Part shown: positions 1-34,075 of the stretch, piece after piece | How the letters are laid out: each line of letters starts with the position of its first letter | How positions within the stretch are numbered: the stretch's first letter is position 1 | Assembly (NCBI RefSeq): GCF_965363235.1 | Contig: NC_134849.1 | Coordinates: 58,175,122 to 58,239,121 of the forward strand | DNA length: 64,000 nt | Direction of reading: 5' to 3' | DNA from: Mytilus galloprovincialis | Lineage: Eukaryota; Mollusca; Bivalvia; Mytilida; Mytilidae | Made by a program: the position numbers and the translations under genes | The notes under the pieces: generated by a model | What the model was told of the DNA's origin: nothing | The model's input: only the letters and a program-made list of their open reading frames with translations | The model's database searches: none

Positions 1-128
1 AACTTATGAGTTATTACCAAAACAAAAATTCTACCATTGATTTATTTACACTTATACCATTGATAATAAGGTTATTTACATAAATTCGTATATATAATAA
101 GATGGACAGGAACATAAATATATCGTAC

Positions 129-4273: not shown

Positions 4274-4695
4274 TAATAAAATTAACGGTACCAATTTTCT
4301 TGCAACAGATGCGCATTTCGACAATACATGTCTCTTCAGTGATGCTCGTGGCCAAAATATTTGAAATCCAAAGCTTATATAAAAGATGAAGAGCTATTAT
4401 CCAAAAGGTCCAAAAAGTATAGCCAAATCCGTGAAAGGAATCAGAGCTTTGCATGAGGGAGATACATTCCTTAATTTATAATAATTTCTATCATTTTGTA
4501 ACAGCAAATTTTAATAAGACAAAAAATCCGTATTTTCATGCCAGTACTGAAGTACTGGCTACTGGGCTGGTGATACCCTCGGGGACTAGTAGTCCACCAG
4601 CAGAGGTATCGAGCCAGTGGTAGTAATAAAATTATCGGTACCAATTTTCTTGTACCAGATGCGCATTTCGACAATACATGTCTCTTCAGTGATGT
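4274..4695 (+). repeat. 350 bp tandem repeat, 1.2 copies
   Basis: 'taataaaattaacggtacca' at 4274 recurs as 'taataaaattatcggtacca' at 4624, both followed by the same ~60 bp ('gatgcgcatttcgacaatac', 'atgtctcttcagtgatg'). The period is 350 bp. The unit also contains a 'ccagtactgaagtactgg' palindrome near 4541. This is a dispersed mussel-type repeat with satellite-like head-to-tail structure. Confidence 0.75.
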
Positions 4696-12084: not shown

Positions 12085-12555
12085 CAAGAGATCAAGAGAG
12101 ATCTATCATATACATGCTCACATCAAGGTGATCTATAATACATGCTCACATCAAAGTGATATCTAATACATCAAGGTGATCTATAATACATCAAGGTGAT
12201 CTATATTACATGGTCCCATCAAAGTGATGTCTAATACATCAAGGTGATCTATAATACATCAAGGTGATCTATAATACATGCTCACATCAAAGTGATATCT
12301 AATACATCAAGGTGATCTATAATACATCAAGGTGATCTATGATACATGCTCACATCAAAGTGATATCTAATACATCAAGGTGATCTATAATACATGCTCA
12401 CATCAAAGTGATATCTAATACATCAAGGTGATCTATAATACATCAAGGTGATCTATAATACATCAAGGTGATCTATAATACATGCTCACATCAAAGTGAT
12501 ATATAATACATGCTCATATCAAAGTGATCTATAATACATGCTCACATTAAAGTGA
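12085..12555 (+). repeat. Minisatellite with two interleaved unit types
   Basis: Units of 20 bp (catcaaggtgatctataata) alternate with 28 bp units of the form catgctcacatcaaagtgat + atctaata. About 20 units are visible, ending with diverged forms ('catattaaagtgatctaca'). The shared core is TCAARGTGAT. It is not a CRISPR: the units abut without unique spacers. Confidence 0.85.
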
Positions 12556-12815
12556 TCTACAACTGGATGGAAAATCCATCAATCATTAATGCTAATATGC
12601 AAAATTAATGTTAAATCAACAATGCCAAATATGGCCTTTTTACTCTTACCAGCTATATAAGCATGTTTGTATTAAAGTAGAAATATCCATAAAATTTGTC
12701 ACTTCAGAAATGAAACCATCACCATATGGAAAAGGCTTTAGCCAAAAACCAGCAGAGAGCCAGTATAAAGTTAAAGTACCAACAGTTTAATTTATATCTA
12801 TAATACTAAAATTAC

Positions 12816-22185: not shown

Positions 22186-22193
22186 CATTTAAA

Positions 22194-22240
22194 CTAGATT
22201 TGCCATTGCAAGCAATAGCGGATGGCACCCTTCTCGTATT
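22194..22240 (+). repeat. Array unit head 1 (type B)
   Basis: CTAGATTTGCCATTGCAAGC then AATAGCGGATGGCACCC: a stem ATTGC/GCAAT around AA. First and most diverged head; the array starts here. Confidence 0.7.
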
Positions 22241-23050
22241 TCCAGGCGAGCGGCAGCAATCTAGAAGATTCCAATTTCAAGGAGTGTATCTACACATTCA
22301 AATTATCATTGTTGTAAAGTTTCATTAAGTTTGGAGCATTTTGAAATTTTGGATATTTTTGCTGTTTCCATGGTTACGGTGGCCATTTTGAAAATTCAAA
22401 CTTCAAAATGCACATCTTCCAATGTTGCTCATCATTACTGTGAAGTTTCATTAAGTTTGGAGCATTTTGAAATTTTGGATATTTTTGCTGTTTCCATGGT
22501 AACGGCGGCCATTTTAAAAATTCCAACTTCAAAAATCAACTCTGCTTATGCCAGTGACCATTTCAGTAAAGTTTCATCCAGTTTGCAGCATTCTTATCAT
22601 TTTTTGAAATTTTTGACTTTTTTGCATTGTTTCCATGGTAACAGGAGCTATTTAAATACCACATCTTCTAATATTGCTTATCGTAAGTGTGAAGTTTCAT
22701 GAAGTTTGGAGCATTTTGAGAATTTTGAAATTTTTGGTGTTGTTTCCATGGCAACATAGTAGTTCCAATGAGTGCCAAAATCATCCAACACCTGTAAATA
22801 GTGGGCACCTACATTATATTAAAATATAATTATTCTGAGTTAAAGCATATCCAAATGTTCGCCAAAACTGAAATTTTTCACATTTGTTCTGTTTCCATGG
22901 TAACGGTAGCCATCTTGAACCATTCCATGCTTCCTGCAACACTGCACATGGGGGTCCTTAATATGGTAAAGTTCCATCAACTTTGGTCCATTGGATTTCG
23001 AGAAATCGCGAGGACAAAATGTGTTGCAAGAAAAATAATAAGAAAAAAAA

Positions 23051-23100
23051 CTAGATTTGTAATTGCTAGCAATAACGGATGGCACCCTTCCCCCATTGCC
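23051..23100 (+). repeat. Array unit head 2 (type A)
   Basis: CTAGATTTGTAATTGCTAGC then AATAACGGATGGCACCC. ATTGCTAGCAAT is a perfect 12 bp palindrome. The same type recurs at 24822 and 26630. Confidence 0.75.
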
Positions 23101-24774
23101 AGGTGAGCGGTAGCCATTTTGAAAATTCCAAAGTCAAATAGTGCATCTACAGATGTCTAGTAACATTTTTGGAAAGTTGCATTAAGTTTGAAGCATTTTG
23201 AAATATTGGATAATTTTGCTGTTTCCATGGTAACGGCGGCCATTTTGAAAATTCCAAACTCAAAAGTCAAGTCTACATAAGCTAGGCAACATTTGTTATA
23301 AGTTTCCTTAAATTTGAAGCATTTTGAAGTTTTTCATATTTTTGCTGTTTCCATGGTAACGGCGGCCATTTTGAATATTCCAAAGTCAAACCCCCGCTGC
23401 AATTTTTTGCCCTCCATAAACATATACCATTTAATGTCTCTAGAATAAATTTAACATTGATGTTCTGGAATGTTCTGTGAAAATTCAAAGTTTTGACCTT
23501 TTTGCATTGTTTCCAAGGTAACAACAGATATTTTGGAAACTCCAACACCAAATTCCACATCTTCCAATGTTGCTCATCGTTACTGTGAAGTTTCCTGAAG
23601 TTTGGAGCATTTTGAGAATTTCGAAATTTTTGGTGTAGTTTCCATGGCAACATAGTAGTTCCAATGATCACCAAAATCATCCAACACCTGTATATAGTGG
23701 GCACCTACATTGTATTAAAATATAATGATTCTGAGATAAAGCATATCCAAACAGTTCACCAAAACAAAAAACTGGATTTTTTCACATTTGTTCTGTTTCC
23801 ATGGAAACGGTAGCCATCTTGAACCATTCCATGCTTCCTGCAACTCTGCACCTGGGGGTCCTTACTATAGTAGAGTTCCATCAACATTGGTCCATTGGAT
23901 TTCGAGAAATCACATGGACAAAATTTGTTGCAAGAAGAAAAATAATAATAACTAGATTTGCCATTGCAAGCAATAGCGGATGGCACCCTTTCCCCATTGC
24001 CAGGCCAGCGGCAGCCATTTAGAATATTTTTGCTGTTTCCATGGCAACGGCGGCCATTTTGAAAATTCGAAACTCAAAAGTTAAGTCTACATAAGCTAGG
24101 CAAAATGTGTTATAAGTTTCATTAAATTTAAAGCATTTTGAAGTTTTTCATAATTTTGCTGTTCCCATGATAACAGCGGCCATTTTGAATATTCCAAAAG
24201 TGCATTTTTTTCCCTCCATAATCATATATACCATCATATACCATTTAATGTCTCTAGAATAAATTTAACATTGATGTTCTGGAATGTTCTGTGAAAATTC
24301 AAAGTTTTGACCTTTTTGCATTATTTCCATGGTAACAACAGATATCTTAGAAATTCCAACACCAAATTCCACATCTTCCAATGTTGCTCATCGTTACTGT
24401 GAAGTTTCAAAACATTTGGAGCATTTCCATATTTTGGAAATATTTGGTGTAGTTTCCATGGCAACATAGTAGTTCCAATGAGTGCCAAAATCACCCAACA
24501 CCTGTATATAGTGGGCACCTCCATTGTATTCAAATATAATGATTCTGAGTTAAAGCATATCCAAACAGTTCACCAAAAACAAAAACTGGATTTTTTCACA
24601 TTTGTTCTGTTTCCATGGAAACGGCAGCCATCTTGAACCATTCCATGCTTCCTGCAACTCTGCACATGGGGGTCCTTAATATAGTAAAGTTCCATCAACT
24701 TTGGTACTTTAGATTTGGAGAAATCGCCTGGACAAAATGTGTTGCAAGAAAAATAATAATAAGAAAAAAAAGAA

Positions 24775-24821
24775 ACGTAGAATAACAATACGTCACCCCA
24801 ACTCCGTTGAGGGTGCCATAA
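24775..24821 (+). repeat. Hairpin module between array units
   Basis: 'aagaaacgtagaataacaat' followed by ACGTCACCCCAAC-TCC-GTTGAGGGTGCCAT, an imperfect stem-loop. It separates one unit tail from the next head. The same module occurs at 27410-27460 and 28610-28662, and twice in tandem at 30013-30120. Confidence 0.75.
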
Positions 24822-27800
24822 CTAGATTTGTAATTGCTAGCAATAACGGATGGCACCCTTCCCCTATTGCCAGGTGAGCGGCGGCCATTTAGAAAATTCC
24901 AAACTCAAAAGTCAAGTCTACATAAGCTAGGCAACATTTGTTATAAGTTTCCTTAAATTTGAAGCATTTTGAAGTTTTTCATATTTTTGCTGTTTCCATG
25001 GTAACGGCGGCCATTTTGAATATTCCAAAGTCAAACCCGTGCTGCATTTTTTGCCCTCCATAATAATATACCATTTAATGTCTCTAGAATAAATTTAACA
25101 TTGATGTTCTGGAATGTTCTGTGAAAATTCAAAGTTTTGACCTTTTTGCATTGTTTCCAAGGTAACAACAGATATTTTGGAAATTCCAACGCCCAATTCC
25201 ACATCTTCCAATGTTGCTCATCGTTACTGTGAAGTTTTCTGAAGTTTGGAGCATTTTCAGAATTTCGAAATTTTTGATGTAGTTTCCATGGCAACATAGT
25301 AGTTCCAATGATCACCAAAATCATCCAACACCTGTATATAGTGGGCACCTACATTGTATTAAAATATAATGATTCTGAGATAAAGCATATCCAAACAGTT
25401 CACCAAAACAAAAAACAGGATTTTTTCACATTTGTTCTGTTTCCATGGAAACGGTAGCCATCTTGAACCATTCCATGCTTCCTGCAACTCTGCACCTGGG
25501 GGTCCTTACTATAGTAGAGTTCCATCAACATTGGTCCATTGGATTTCGAGAAATCACCTGGACAAAATTTGTTGCAAGAAAAATAATAATAACTAGAATT
25601 GCTATTGCAAGCAATAGCGGATGTCACCCTTCCCCCTATTGCCACTAAGCGGCAGCCATTTCAAAATTGTTTAACAGTGAATGCACATATATACATGGCA
25701 ATACATCTTTCTGTAAATTTTCAGTACATTCAGAGCATTTTAGAAAATTTCACATTTTTGCTGTTTCCATGGCAACGGCAGCCATTTTGAAAATTCCAAA
25801 GTCAAAAGTCTCATCTATACATGCGAGTTAACAATAATATTAAGTTTCATAAAATTTGGAGCATTATGAGAATATTTGACAATTCTGCAGTTTCCATGGC
25901 AACGGTGCCCATTTTGGAAATTCCAACTTCAAAAGTTTCATGCAGACTTGACAGTCAACAATCATAGTAAGTTTCATTACTTTTTGAGCATTTTGAAATT
26001 TTTGAAATTTTTGACATTTTGGCTGGTTTCTATGGTTACACAGACCATTCCAAATTTCTAATGGCAGATACCACATTGGTACATGGGAAGGAGCATACCA
26101 TCAGAGTTTCAATGGATTTGACCTACCCTTTTAAGAAAGTAAATGCCACTTTTAGGTGTTTTTGGACCATTTTTACCATTTTTGCATTGTTTCCATGGAA
26201 ACGGCAGACATTTGGGAAATTCCAACGCCAAATTCCACATCTACCAATGTTGCTCATCGTTACTGTGAAGTTTCATTTAATTTGGAGCATTTCCATATTT
26301 TGGAAATTTTTGGTGTAGTATCCATGGCAACATAGCAGTTCCAATGATTGCCAAAATCATCCCAAAACCAGTGTATAGTGGGCACCTACATTGTATTAAA
26401 ATCTAAAGATTTTAAGCATAACCATTCTCAAATAATTGGCCGAACTCTAAAATTATATTTTTTCACTATTTTTCTGTTTCCATGGTGATGGCAGCCATTT
26501 TTTAGTTCCAAAGTTGCACTGCAACTGGAAAGTCAGGGTTCCTTGTTATAGTGCACCATCATTCAGATTGGTTCCTTTGGCTCCAAAAAAACTGCCGGAC
26601 AAAATTAGGTGGAAGAAAAATAATAATAACTAGATTTGTAATTGCTAGCAATAACGGATGGCACCCTTCCCCTATTGCCAGGTGAGCGGCGGCCATTTAG
26701 AAAATTCCAAACTCAAAAGTCAAGTCTACATAAGCTAGGCAACATTTGTTATAAGTTTCCTTAAATTTGAAGCATTTTGAAGTTTTTCATATTTTTGCTG
26801 TTTCCATGGTAACGGCGGCCATTTTGAATATTCCAAAGTCAAACCCGTGCTGCATTTTTTGCCCTCCATAATAATATACCAATGTCTCTATAATAAATTT
26901 AACATTGATGTTCTGGAATGTTCTGTGAAAATTCAAAGTTTTGACCTTTTTGCATTGTTTCCAAGGTAACAACAGATATTTTGGAAATTCCAACGCCAAA
27001 TTCCACATCTTCCAATGTTGCTCATCGTTACTGTGAAGTTTCCTGAAGTTTGGAGCATTTTGAGAATTTCGAAATTTTTGGTGTAGTTTCCATGGCAACA
27101 TAGTAGTTCCAATGATCACCAAAATCATCCAACACCTGTATATAGTGGGCACCTACATTGTATTAAAATATAATGATTCTGAGATAAAGCATATGCAAAC
27201 AGTTTACCAAAACAAAAAACTGGATTTTTTCACATTTGATGTGTTTCCATGGAAACGGTAGCCATCTTGAACCATTCCATGCTTCCTGCAACTCTGCACC
27301 TGGGGGTCCTTACTATAGTAGAGTTCCATCAACATTGGTCCATTGGATTTCGAGAAATCACCTGGACAAAATTTGTTGCAAGAAAAATAATAATAATAAT
27401 AAGAAAAAAAAGAAACGTAGAATAACAATACGTCACCCCAACTCCGTTGAGGGTGCCATAATAATAATAACTAGAATTGCCATTGCAAGCAATAGCGGAT
27501 GTCACCCTTCCCCCATTGCCACTAAGCAGCAGCCATTATAAAACAATTTAACAGTGAATGCAGATGTATGAATTGCGATATATCTTTCTATACATTTTCA
27601 GTTCATTTAGACCATTGTAAAAAGTTTCATATTTCTGCTGTTTCCATGGCAACGGCAGCCATTTTGCAAATTCCAAAGTAAAAAATCTCATCTTTACATG
27701 CCAGCTAACAATAATATTAAGTTTGGAGCATTTCGAAAATATTTGACATTTTTGCAGTTTCCATGGCAACGATGGCCATTTTGGAAATTCCAACTTCAAA

Positions 27801-28479
27801 AGTCTGATGCAGTCTTGACAGTCAACAATCATATTAAGTTTCATTAATTTTGGAGCATTTTGAAATTTTTGATCCTGTATCCATGGTAACATAGTAGTTC
27901 CAATGATTGTCAAAATCATTCAAAACCTGGATATAGTGGACAACTATATTGCATTAGAATTTCATGATTTTAAGTTCAAGCATACCAAAGTTATTCACCA
28001 AAGCCGGAAGTTTTTGGAGCATTTTGACCTTTTTGCATTGTTTCCATGGAAACGGCAGACATTTTGGAAATTCCAACGCCAAATTCCACATCTACTAAAG
28101 TTGCTCATCGTTATGCTAAAGTTTCAAAAAATTTGGACCATTTTCATAATTTTGAAATTTTTGGTGTAGTTTCCATGGCAACATAGTAGTTCCAATGATT
28201 GCCAAAATCATCCAAAACCAGTATATGGGTGGCACCTTCATTGTATCAAAATATAATGATTCTGAGTTTAAGCATCTCCAAATTATTCACAAAAACCAAA
28301 AAGTGGAATTTTTCACAATTGTTCCGTTTCCATGGAAATGGCAGCCATTTTTTATGGTCTTAGACCCTACTGCAACCTGGAATTTTGTGTTCCCTATTAT
28401 ACTTAACTATCATTAAGATTGGTTCCATTGGCTCCGAGAAAAGTGGCGGACAAAATAGTTGGAAGAATAATAATAATAA

Positions 28480-28662
28480 CAAAGAAACAGAGGAAAAGCA
28501 ATATGTCACCCGACATTGTCGATCGGGTGACATAATAATAGGGAAAAAGAAACAGAGGAAAAGCAATATGTCACCCGACTTTGTCGATCGGGTGACATAA
28601 TAAGAAAAAAAAGAAACGTAGAATAACAATACGTCACCCCAACTCCGTTGAGGGTGCCATAA
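28480..28662 (+). repeat. Three tandem hairpin modules
   Basis: Two modules carry a perfect 12 bp stem TATGTCACCCGA / TCGGGTGACATA with loops that differ by one base (28502 and 28568). They are followed by one of the imperfect ACGTCACCCC type. Each is preceded by an A-rich leader ('aaagaaacagaggaaaagca'). Confidence 0.85.
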
Positions 28663-28699
28663 TAAGAAAACTAGATTTGCCATTGCAAGCAATAGCTGA

Positions 28700-29330
28700 G
28701 GATGTCACCCCGTTCTGGACATTGTCACAGTAGCAGCAACCAGTTTGAGTGTACCAAAGTCAGATGACACGTCTAGTATACATGCCTTTGACTCCCCCCC
28801 TTTTTTTTCTTCTCGTAGACTAAGAGTGATGTCTATATATAGTTGGGGATGTCTTTAAAATCTTAAATTAGACACATGCGCGAGGAAGATAGGTGGTGTC
28901 ACGTGATACTGAAGTATATTATCGTGGACTTAGAACATTACTATTCTTTTTAGAGGGGACCTTGGACAGACAACATGTGTATATATTGACGGATCGGCAT
29001 ACTGACTGTTCATTTTATTCTTCAATTACTCGCGTATCACACGATACATGTATCTTGTACAATTTAATTACACGCTTATCGATTGATTTTTAGCTCATGT
29101 GTATATTGTAGCAGGTGTTCGATTAACGGATGTGTACTTTAGTGCAAGTGCAGAAATGTCACTTATGTGTACTCTTCGTGTTTCTCTCTCTCTCTCTCAG
29201 TGGCGATTCTCTCCTCAAAGCACGATTTATGTATAGAATAGAAGCACGTTAAATTCTATATAAGTTTTCTTCAAGCATATTCTAGAAGATGTTTTGCAGT
29301 ACAGATTTGTATTTGATCGTATGCACATAG
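28700..29330. other. Interruption in the array without X-box motifs
   Basis: Includes a poly-C/poly-T tract near 28793 and a (CT)n run at 29195-29209. No motif copies occur until 29389. It may be an insertion or decayed array sequence; I recognise no element in it. Confidence 0.5.
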
Positions 29331-29974
29331 TCATGATTACAGAATTTTGCCTGAAAGTTGCGATTTTTTTTTGATTTTTTTTTGGCTGTTTCCATGACAA
29401 CGACGGCCATTTTGAAAATTTCAAGGACAGATGACGTTTCAATAGCATTTTACCGGGAATGAGCTTAAAATTTGCAACAAATTGATACTTTGACGTTTTT
29501 TCCCATATGGGTCAATATTGCACTTTTAGCCTTTTCTCCATGGTAACAGCAGCAATCTCAAAAATTCCAACGGCAATGAATTCTACAGTTCATAGTCTTG
29601 TTACAAAGGGGGAGTATTAGAGGTCGTATCGGTAACGGTTGATTTACTATGAATTAATTAAGGAATTATTTTCGTTTTTTTCACGTTTGGACTGTTTCCA
29701 TGGCAACGGTAGCAATTTTGAAAGTTTTTAAGATGGATTTCACGCTTTCGCCTGACCAGTTACAATGTCTGAAAGTTTCGTTTATTTTGGACCATTTTTC
29801 GGTTTTTCACATTTTTGCCGTTTCCATGGTAACGGCGGCCATCTTGAAAATTCCAGACCCTAACTGCACATCTGCACATGGGGATTGTCATTATGGTACA
29901 GTTTTATTAATGTATGTCAAGTCATCTCCGAGAACTAAGCTGGACAAAAAGTGTGGAAGAATAATTCGGAACAA

Positions 29975-30120
29975 TAACAATATATCACCCCTATTTCCAT
30001 AGGGGTGACATAAAAAAGAAACGTAGAATAACAATATGCCACCCCAACTCCGTTGAGGGTGCCATAAAAAGAAACGTAGAATAACAATACGTCACCCCAA
30101 CTCAGTTGAGGGTGCCATAA
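29975..30120 (+). repeat. Terminal tandem hairpin modules closing the array
   Basis: TATCACCCCTATTTCCATAG then GGGTGACATA (29980-30012) is followed by two ~54 bp modules with ACCCCAACTC-CGTTGAGGGTGCCATA-type stems (30034 and 30088). The array ends at 30120. Confidence 0.8.
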
Positions 30121-33929: not shown

Positions 33930-34075
33930 ATGTCGTGTACAAGTTGCAATTTTGTACAGGTTATAACATGTACAAAAATATTGTACATGTTATAATTTGT
34001 ACAATACCAAGATACAAGTTATAACGTGTACAAAAGTACCTCGTACATGTTATAACATGTACAAAATATTGCTTA
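33930..34075. repeat. Cluster of TTATAACATGTACAA inverted words
   Basis: Several words of the form TTGTACANGTTATAACNTGTACAA, direct and inverted, include a perfect 20 bp palindrome GTACATGTTATAACATGTAC at 34043-34062. They lie between the SINE at 33667 and its inverted tail at 34345. Confidence 0.75.

Follow-up and report, generated by a model that had tools for sequence, protein, structure and literature searches.

Nearly 8 kb of the window, by which we mean the whole 64-kb stretch of DNA analyzed here, is occupied by a block of eight related non-autonomous Helitron/HINE-like elements nested in one another on the minus strand. The initial annotation had placed the limits of this block at 22194-30120, which are precisely the outer ends of the structure, and had named a nucleosome-phasing satellite among its possible roles, a reading displaced, like that of a plain tandem array, by the paired ends of eight nested mobile elements. 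No Rfam family is found in the window at gathering score. The parts of the nest are as follows:

22192-30120, minus strand: whole nest of eight Helitron/HINE-like elements, with eight 3' ends and eight 5' hairpins, balanced
22194-23048, minus strand: element 1, outermost, 3' end (CTAG) and body, five X-box-like words, G type (GGCACC / GGTGCC at both ends)
30089-30120, minus strand: 5' hairpin of element 1
23051-23949, minus strand: element 2, 3' end and body, five words, G type
30036-30067, minus strand: 5' hairpin of element 2
23952-24821, minus strand: element 3, complete, five words, G type, hairpin at 24790-24821
24822-25590, minus strand: element 4, 3' end and body, four words, G type
28631-28662, minus strand: 5' hairpin of element 4
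25593-26627, minus strand: element 5, 3' end and body, six words, B type (GTCACC / GGTGAC)
28568-28600, minus strand: 5' hairpin of element 5
26630-27461, minus strand: element 6, complete, four words, G type, hairpin at 27430-27461
27471-28535, minus strand: element 7, complete, six words, B type, hairpin at 28503-28535
28671-30013, minus strand: element 8, complete, four words, 3' end GTCACC and hairpin GGTGAC, hairpin at 29982-30013

With each 3' end written as an opening bracket and each 5' hairpin as a closing one, the window reads ((()((()()))())), a balanced word of eight openers and eight closers in which the type of the subterminal repeat agrees in 8 of 8 end pairs. Satellite DNA, in the sense of tandem units of one kind produced by amplification, was rejected on the mixed subfamilies, the complete ends and the bracket structure.

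The most conspicuous sequence within these elements is GTTTCCATGGYAAC, which resembles the X-box bound by RFX factors. There are 39 near-copies (up to three mismatches), 20 of them exact, where about 38 had been estimated; all lie on the plus strand, at these positions:

22364-29833, plus strand: 39 X-box-like words (match scan, up to 3 mismatches)
Words 1-10, plus strand, starts: 22364, 22490, 22629, 22742, 22891, 23221, 23347, 23509, 23638, 23795
Words 11-20, plus strand, starts: 24035, 24161, 24323, 24452, 24609, 24992, 25153, 25282, 25439, 25763
Words 21-30, plus strand, starts: 25890, 26026, 26189, 26318, 26476, 26800, 26957, 27086, 27243, 27640
Words 31-39, plus strand, starts: 27757, 27877, 28040, 28169, 28326, 29388, 29534, 29694, 29820

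Outside the array, the remainder of the 64 kb contains five plus-strand matches to GTTTCCATGGYAAC, every one with three mismatches. A second motif, RYYNYYWTRRNRAC, is similarly confined, with all 29 of its plus-strand matches and 33 of its 35 minus-strand matches in the 64-kb window falling within the array. The core of the YY1 site is AAnATGGC, or GCCATnTT in reverse, and 21 of the 39 window units carry this core at constant spacing: a YY1-like CCAT[TC]TT starts exactly 5 nt past the X-box-like word (21/39), in agreement with the initial annotation, which had described a YY1-type site 5 bp on in many copies.

Read in their own sense, the elements open with a TTATGG-CACC hairpin on the 5' side, followed by a (TTA)n spacer rich in A/T and by three to six diverged sub-repeats of about 115-165 bp with one X-box-like word apiece; a subterminal inverted repeat, a palindrome of 18 nt and CTAG complete the 3' side. 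The ends of the family can be written TTATGGCACC...CTAG, and its 3' end pattern has 4433 matches in the genome (2023+2410) as opposed to none for the reversed pattern. Canonical Helitrons begin with 5' TC and end with 3' CTRR, and carry a palindrome of 16-20 nt some 11 nt upstream of the 3' terminus. The aligned 3' ends conform to this pattern in terminating with CTAG, whereas the 5' terminus is TTATGG rather than TC. The palindrome of the main family (18 nt, imperfect) sits 8 nt from the 3' end; it shows a single compensatory change, C-G to T-A, when subfamilies are compared, and its folding energy is ordinary (z -1.0 and 0.17). The 5' hairpins are stable (z -4.1 and -5.6). Affinity to HINEs is evident in the 3' stem-loop and in the subterminal inverted repeats ATGGCACCCT / AGGGTGCCAT, which lie 2 nt in from the 5' end and no more than about 38 nt from the 3' end. 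A second end family with 3' CTTG also populates the arrays; its ends are quite different, its words are the same, and its 18-nt palindrome lies exactly 11 nt from the end.

The target site is equally well defined. One insertion (L011) splits an ORF that resembles those of retrotransposons, and at four paralogs lacking the element (L081-L084) the sequence continues uninterrupted across the junction; comparison of filled and empty sites indicates insertion between A and T without target-site duplication, with the shared 2-nt TT being indistinguishable from a 2-bp duplication. Furthermore, 66 of 67 3' ends adjoin AA on the plus strand, which is ^TT in the sense of the element. Under the rule applied here, 10 of 56 later junctions fall neither in the (TTA)n spacer nor at the 5' terminus. 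No autonomous partner with the same ends was found at the 3' sides of 15 Rep loci, taken from 138 PF14214 matches. One of these 15 loci, L080, bears a textbook CTAG Helitron end belonging to another family.

The bracket structure of the window recurs elsewhere in the genome. We examined seven loci on C1, drawn from the first 100 of the 4433 3'-end matches (all of them on C1), together with the window on C12, and in these eight loci jointly adjacent pairs agree in type in 46 of 46 cases and nested pairs in 35 of 39, the remaining 4 disagreeing. Shuffling the labels gives a mean of 22.7/39 for nested pairs, and 0 of 20,000 shuffles did as well; unmatched brackets number 7 compared to 31.5 expected by shuffle. 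L092, whose second closing hairpin is a false match, was excluded from the joint test, and a partial array at 27.43 Mb from the test of unmatched brackets. The CTTG family (six pairs, all agreeing) was added once the points at which an initial parse of the 40-kb array broke down were known; before its addition, 32 of 36 nested pairs agreed (p=0.00045). In the multi-copy stretches examined, 62 of 62 elements share the direction of their own array. Arrays reach at least 43 elements and a depth of at least 11 among the matches listed. A test of whether enclosing elements are older than those they enclose gave no signal (32 vs. 31 of 63 pairs), using best identity to any other copy as a crude proxy for age.

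Such head-to-tail orientation throughout would also be expected if, in place of successive insertions, tandem amplification had built a genuine satellite or read-through of the 3' termination signal had produced a rolling-circle concatemer. There is precedent in the tandem Helitron arrays attributed to missed termination in bat and silkworm (PMC4067079) and in plant arrays with many 5' ends and one 3' end (PMC12628747). We nevertheless judge this origin quite unlikely: adjacent units of the arrays belong to different subfamilies, 3' ends and 5' hairpins balance (8/8 in the window), and hairpins form stacks of up to eight in which the types appear as a mirror image of the body order (at C1:22.17 Mb, C G G followed by G G C). 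Balanced brackets and paired end types imply that the arrays expand as elements insert into one another, at A^TT sites and always in one orientation.

Within this nested framework the word is far better conserved than its flanks. Across 19 non-redundant sub-units, drawn from 43 whose source was subfamily consensus sequences plus two single copies, pairwise identity averages 0.845 in the word, 0.370 in the preceding 40 nt and 0.464 in the following 40 nt, bearing out the earlier impression that flanks are more diverged than the core. Several sub-unit sets, including those behind this 19-unit identity and the 390-instance counts given below, were found by allowing the word up to three mismatches; part of the variant counts in subfamily S4a and a word-masked profile serve as checks on that ascertainment. 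Sub-units found by the masked profile retain the word within two mismatches in 255 of 259 cases. Among 26 S4a copies, shared variants occur at 0 of 70 word sites and at 144 of 661 other sites, with private variants in 7 of 1799 word cells and 209 of 17001 other cells; the YY1-like site has 1 shared variant at 40 sites, against the same 144 at 661. Fifteen of these 26 copies came from a query ending before the first word, and most of the others were grouped by word positions; 6 of 32 were dropped as truncated, mosaic or more than 10% diverged (L064, L065, L066, L068, L074 and C1_5122040m1500). Base-matched non-CpG private variants in the word number 6 against 20.3 expected in S4a; across six other subfamilies there are 13, with 46.8 expected. 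Elsewhere in the analysis, comparisons by subfamily used the 39 of 67 elements that belong to one of seven subfamilies, the other 28 falling in none of these. The identity, the S4a variants and the masked profile all contradict the possibility, raised at the outset, that motif columns are no more conserved than their neighbors.

Conservation of this kind can be explained in more than one way. Mosaic copies (L066, L068 and L074) switch subfamily between words, indicating that recombination among units happens, and the word could in principle be a mutation-cold or gene-conversion-homogenized stretch that binds no protein. This we regard as very unlikely, since the flanks are near-random (0.37) while the word is held in common, and the one freely varying column of the word is an N of the X-box consensus. 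The depletion of private variants would also suit a predicted role in which the host uses the arrays as enhancer, insulator or factor sink and host-level selection keeps the words. We find that prediction unlikely, as the depletion of shared variants is the stronger, which is expected for selection on spreading lineages, and variants that appear private among 26 copies can still be old lineage variants.

How closely the word matches an RFX site is a separate question. The RFX1 consensus is GTNRCC N0-3 RGYAAC (PMC3414849). The earlier proposal that the word fits the X-box holds for the right half-site, an exact GG[CT]AAC in 226 of 390 instances, but fails for the left, which is GTTTCC in 343 of 390 and GTT[AG]CC in 0 of 390; some lineages have also fixed changes outside the consensus (e.g., GTTTCCATGGTTAC and GTTTCCAAGGTAAC). 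The X-box described in PMC3414849 thus shares GGYAAC and a CCATGG center with the word and differs in its left half, GTNRCC rather than fixed GTTTCC, and natural X-boxes in that account commonly have one strong half-site, as here. Judged by its half-sites, the RFX reading of this putative site is partly supported. RFX DNA-binding domains give 7 matches in the genome, at about 6 places.

Genome-wide, GTTTCCATGGYAAC has 10,932 exact copies (5134+5798), compared to 17 (10+7) for the reversed word and 15 for a version with the central AT turned to TA. Of seven exact GTTTCC-type sites sampled outside recognized 3' ends, two belong to the family, one to another repeat and four are unrelated to anything compared. 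Sites of the perfect palindrome GTTRCCATGGYAAC number 1180, and those of its reversed word 4. A host X-box regulon was considered from these counts and rejected: of five sampled sites, three lie in copies of a single dispersed repeat and another is related to a repeat around L097, and sites so often repeat-borne do not demonstrate a regulon.

The un-RFX-like left half raises the alternative of a signal encoded by the element or serving its replication, iteron-like and recognized by Rep/helicase or another element protein, with the X-box likeness of the word coincidental. Words that are multiple, same-oriented and internal would fit such a signal, as would their presence in the CTTG family, which bears them in the same arrays despite its quite different ends. 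Conversely, the known Helitron determinants described in PMC4778049 sit at the ends, the four unrelated sites among the seven sampled lie outside the family, and a YY1-like site at constant spacing is left unexplained. We consider a signal of the element's own doubtful, albeit a serious contender.

The explanation that we regard as probable, taken whole, is that of nested rolling-circle transposons that insert into themselves at A^TT and whose X-box/YY1-like composite is selected for predicted protein binding. What we observe directly is the two termini, insertion at A^TT, the bracket grammar and the agreement in type between paired ends, and we infer that a Rep/helicase supplied in trans moves the elements. 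An element would insert between A and TT; every insertion would recreate an A^TT at the 5' terminus of the new copy, and further A^TT sites come with its (TTA)n spacer, where they occur in one orientation only, so that later copies would land in the same direction. These copies would come to lie inside an older one, between hairpin and body, or flush with its 5' end, and repetition may yield directional nests of at least 43 elements at the largest. Purifying selection appears to maintain the composite in the lineages that propagate; the simplest account is that a protein binding it would aid mobilization or expression of the element. Among named candidates for that role a host RFX-family factor comes first, predicted rather than demonstrated. 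The conserved, putative docking word suggests that the elements may depend on a host gene-control protein, and recruitment of host factors by the units may, as first proposed, have driven the spread of the repeat. The boldest version, in which a Helitron-type family adopted a host RFX/YY1-like word for its life cycle and spreads by directed self-nesting, is a tentative idea that we think has the lesser chance of being right.

Were this so, the word could keep elements open or expressed in cells building cilia or sperm tails, where new copies would be inherited, and the arrays would be clusters that enlarge themselves and hold from dozens to more than a hundred putative factor sites. The second end family, and the dispersed repeats with perfect X-boxes, could then be convergent or shuffled users of the word. 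More generally, the bracket structure offers a checkable grammar for "satellite-like" Helitron arrays, in which insertions regenerate and re-use an oriented target inside the element, without slippage or concatemers, and every array is a record of its own insertion order. Likewise, more than ten thousand near-identical X-box-like sites, in families with unlike ends, offer a natural means of testing whether selection preserves host-factor sites in transposons. In the literature that was text-searched, whose coverage leaves most subscription journals outside, neither GTTTCCATGGYAAC itself nor this array grammar nor X-box retention in Helitrons is described; among six related words searched, the RFX palindrome does occur, in two papers.

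Several known systems share parts of this organization. The HINEs, or DINE-1-like non-autonomous Helentrons (PMC4067079), have in common a palindromic 5' subterminal inverted repeat set some 2 nt in from the terminus, its inverted-repeat partner near the 3' end, a 3' stem-loop, a simple-sequence spacer, central tandem repeats, and T-rich insertion sites with no duplication beyond a shared TT. In contrast to HINEs as characterized there, the elements described here end in CTAG like canonical Helitrons, target A^TT, contain a conserved X-box/YY1-like composite in their central repeats, and have yielded no partner at 15 of 138 Rep matches. Cg_HINE of Crassostrea gigas (PMC7492417) is likewise a bivalve-type HINE with satellite-like central repeats, flanks and repeats in one orientation and no target duplication; it is described as dispersed at T-rich insertion sites, the description drawn on here features neither an X-box nor balanced nests, and "transcription factor" has 0 occurrences in its text. 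Canonical Helitrons and Helraiser (PMC4778049, PMC5876387) share the CTAG 3' end, insertion between A and T, a palindrome near the 3' end and the capacity for precise head-to-tail junctions, and differ from our elements in having 5' TC; here the 5' terminus is TT, the 5' hairpin is strong and arrays arise by nesting. Finally, the tandem arrays of bat, silkworm and plants (PMC4067079, PMC12628747) are head-to-tail, as here, and are ascribed in those reports to missed termination or rolling-circle amplification, whereas in the present arrays nearly every element has both of its ends, paired like brackets.

Much as the initial annotation had described it, the 8-kb array is packed with an RFX-like word, here the X-box-like motif repeated in the sub-units of each element, of which 39 copies with at most three mismatches (20 of them exact) lie on a single strand; the rest of the 64-kb window holds only five weak matches. 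Repeats of the window include the following.

About 22192-30120, minus strand: array of eight Helitron/HINE-like elements
22364-29833, single strand: the 39 word copies
12091-12559: tandem array, basic unit 20 bp (ACATCAAGGTGATCTATAAT), higher-order period 68
33948-34071: repeat of 29-bp period with AACATGT-type palindromes

The window occupies C12:58175122-58239121. Across the genome searched (1.385 Gb, 331 contigs), the exact word occurs 10,932 times, against 17 occurrences of a reversed and 15 of a centre-swapped control. Array units begin on the plus strand with CTAGATTTGCCATTGCAAGCAATAGCGGATGGCACCC or close variants, a start found at 4433 genomic places (reversed control, 0), and a hairpin module, for example GTCACCCCAACTCCGTTGAGGGTGCCATAA, closes some of them, not all. 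On the minus strand, the unit has the anatomy of a Helitron-type element, ordered 5' to 3' as TT, hairpin, A/T-rich (TTA)n spacer, body, subterminal partner, 18-nt palindrome and CTAG terminus; a 10-nt 5' subterminal repeat lies inside the strong hairpin, and its partner copy between the body and the 3' palindrome. In stability the 5' hairpins lie far above shuffled sequence (z -4.1, -5.6). The main family's 3' palindrome does not stand out in this way (z -1.0, 0.17), although one of its pairs shows a compensatory change between subfamilies. An isolated copy (L011) splits the ORF of a retrotransposon-like element that is uninterrupted at the same point in four paralogs, and comparison with these shows that the copy entered at A^TT and that nothing besides the common TT is duplicated.

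The array is a nest of elements. A satellite, one of the readings first offered for it, was rejected because adjacent units, each with three to six words, come from different subfamilies and their ends are balanced and paired by type. Orientation is uniform within each array examined (62 of 62 elements), the 5' hairpin is absent from many units, and elsewhere several hairpins of unlike type are stacked. With 3' ends scored as opening and 5' hairpins as closing brackets, the window reads ((()((()()))())), in which eight openings and eight closings never run negative and finish at zero, and all pairs agree in type (GGCACC with GGTGCC, GTCACC with GGTGAC). For a 40-kb array at C1:11.83-11.87 Mb, 31 of 33 pairs were type-concordant in a first parse; inclusion of a second end family gave 43 openings, 39 closings and a depth of 11, the final two closings being mismatched and of the type of the two outermost unpaired openings. 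Tested jointly over eight loci (the window and seven on contig C1), adjacent pairs were concordant in 46 of 46 cases and non-adjacent pairs in 35 of 39, against 22.7 in label shuffles, none of 20,000 being as good (32 of 36 without the second family, p=0.00045); complete loci left 7 brackets unmatched, against 31.5 in shuffles. Whether enclosing elements are older than enclosed ones gave no signal (32 v 31), a point against nesting, though the age proxy is weak.

The second family has six copies in the C1:11.83-11.87 Mb array (joined from L039, L040, L093 and L094), and the gaps of the first parse are its elements. It ends 3' in CTTG and has an 18-nt palindrome that lies 11 nt before this terminus; its 15-nt subterminal repeats, AAGTCACCAAAACGG, are unlike the main-family ends, and it carries the same X-box sub-repeats. 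A canonical-looking Helitron (L039:4507-5564; 5' TCTATACTATTAAACG, 3' CCCGCGATTTCGCGGGTGTGTTCTAG then T) lies inverted relative to an array element whose (TTA)n spacer it occupies, and a 3' end of the same kind adjoins a Rep ORF at L080. At L018:2595-2623 a complete element is followed by an outer hairpin of different type (AAGTCTCC...GGAGACTT), probably that of a further end family, and three mosaic copies (L066, L068, L074) switch subfamily between two X-boxes.

The junctions are consistent with nesting. Of 56 later insertions, our own rule of assignment places 23 flush with the 5' terminus of another element, another 23 within the (TTA)n spacer and the remaining 10 at other positions. AA, which is ^TT in the element sense, adjoins 66 of the full set of 67 element ends. 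The (TTA)n spacer presents A^TT in a single direction only, and each inserted copy regenerates the site at its 5' terminus; together these are enough to yield same-direction growth with no extra assumptions.

The word itself appears, from its pattern of variation, to be under selection. As initially proposed, its columns are better kept than their neighbours, mean identity among diverged sub-units being 0.845 for the word and 0.370 for the upstream flank. In 26 copies of subfamily S4a, 15 of them retrieved by a query ending before the first word, variants common to at least two copies number 0 at 70 word sites vs 144 at 661 other sites, and private variants 7 in 1799 word cells vs 209 in 17,001 others; the YY1-like octamers show one shared variant at 40 sites. 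Base-matched, non-CpG private word variants amount to 6 against 20.3 expected in S4a; in six further subfamilies taken together there are 13, where 46.8 are expected. A word-masked profile found 259 sub-units, 255 of which hold the word within two mismatches. Among the diverged sub-units, only position 11 of the word varies freely, and it corresponds to an N of RYYNYYWTRRNRAC.

RFX, with seven domain matches in the genome, is the best named candidate for binding the word, albeit with an imperfect match: the proposed X-box stands in its right half-site, GG[CT]AAC (exact in 226 of 390 instances), and fails in its left, which is GTTTCC in 343 of 390 and GTTRCC in none. X-boxes with a single strong half-site are described as common among real RFX targets (PMC3414849). 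Neutral drift towards RFX would sometimes yield GTTRCC; that this form is absent suggests a role for GTTTCC itself, perhaps in serving a partner protein or another factor. X-box words are also found in other repeats of the genome: the perfect RFX palindrome occurs at 1180 genomic sites, and five of these, taken as a sample, place it in two or more additional dispersed repeats. One dispersed repeat (L100, L102, L103) carries it as GTTACCATGGCAAC in a common context, its flank giving 490 first-look candidates; L097 and L101, which hold two different X-box variants in opposite orientation and whose flanks are 77.6% alike across 107 nt, are possibly a third repeat family.

With respect to known systems, the elements share most of the HINE features quoted from PMC4067079. 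They follow the canonical Helitron 3' CTRR and A^T insertion rules but depart from the 5' TC rule, beginning with TT. The genome holds 138 Helitron Rep-domain (PF14214) matches. Several of them lie in frames that stay open for about 3000 codons (longest 3163), so the genome seems to retain intact autonomous Helitrons or Helentrons; none of the 15 matches examined belongs to an autonomous partner with the same ends. Helitron clusters are already known and have been attributed to missed termination or neighbouring insertions (PMC4067079, PMC12628747); a balanced, type-paired, orientation-locked nest is not described in the literature extracts and listings examined.
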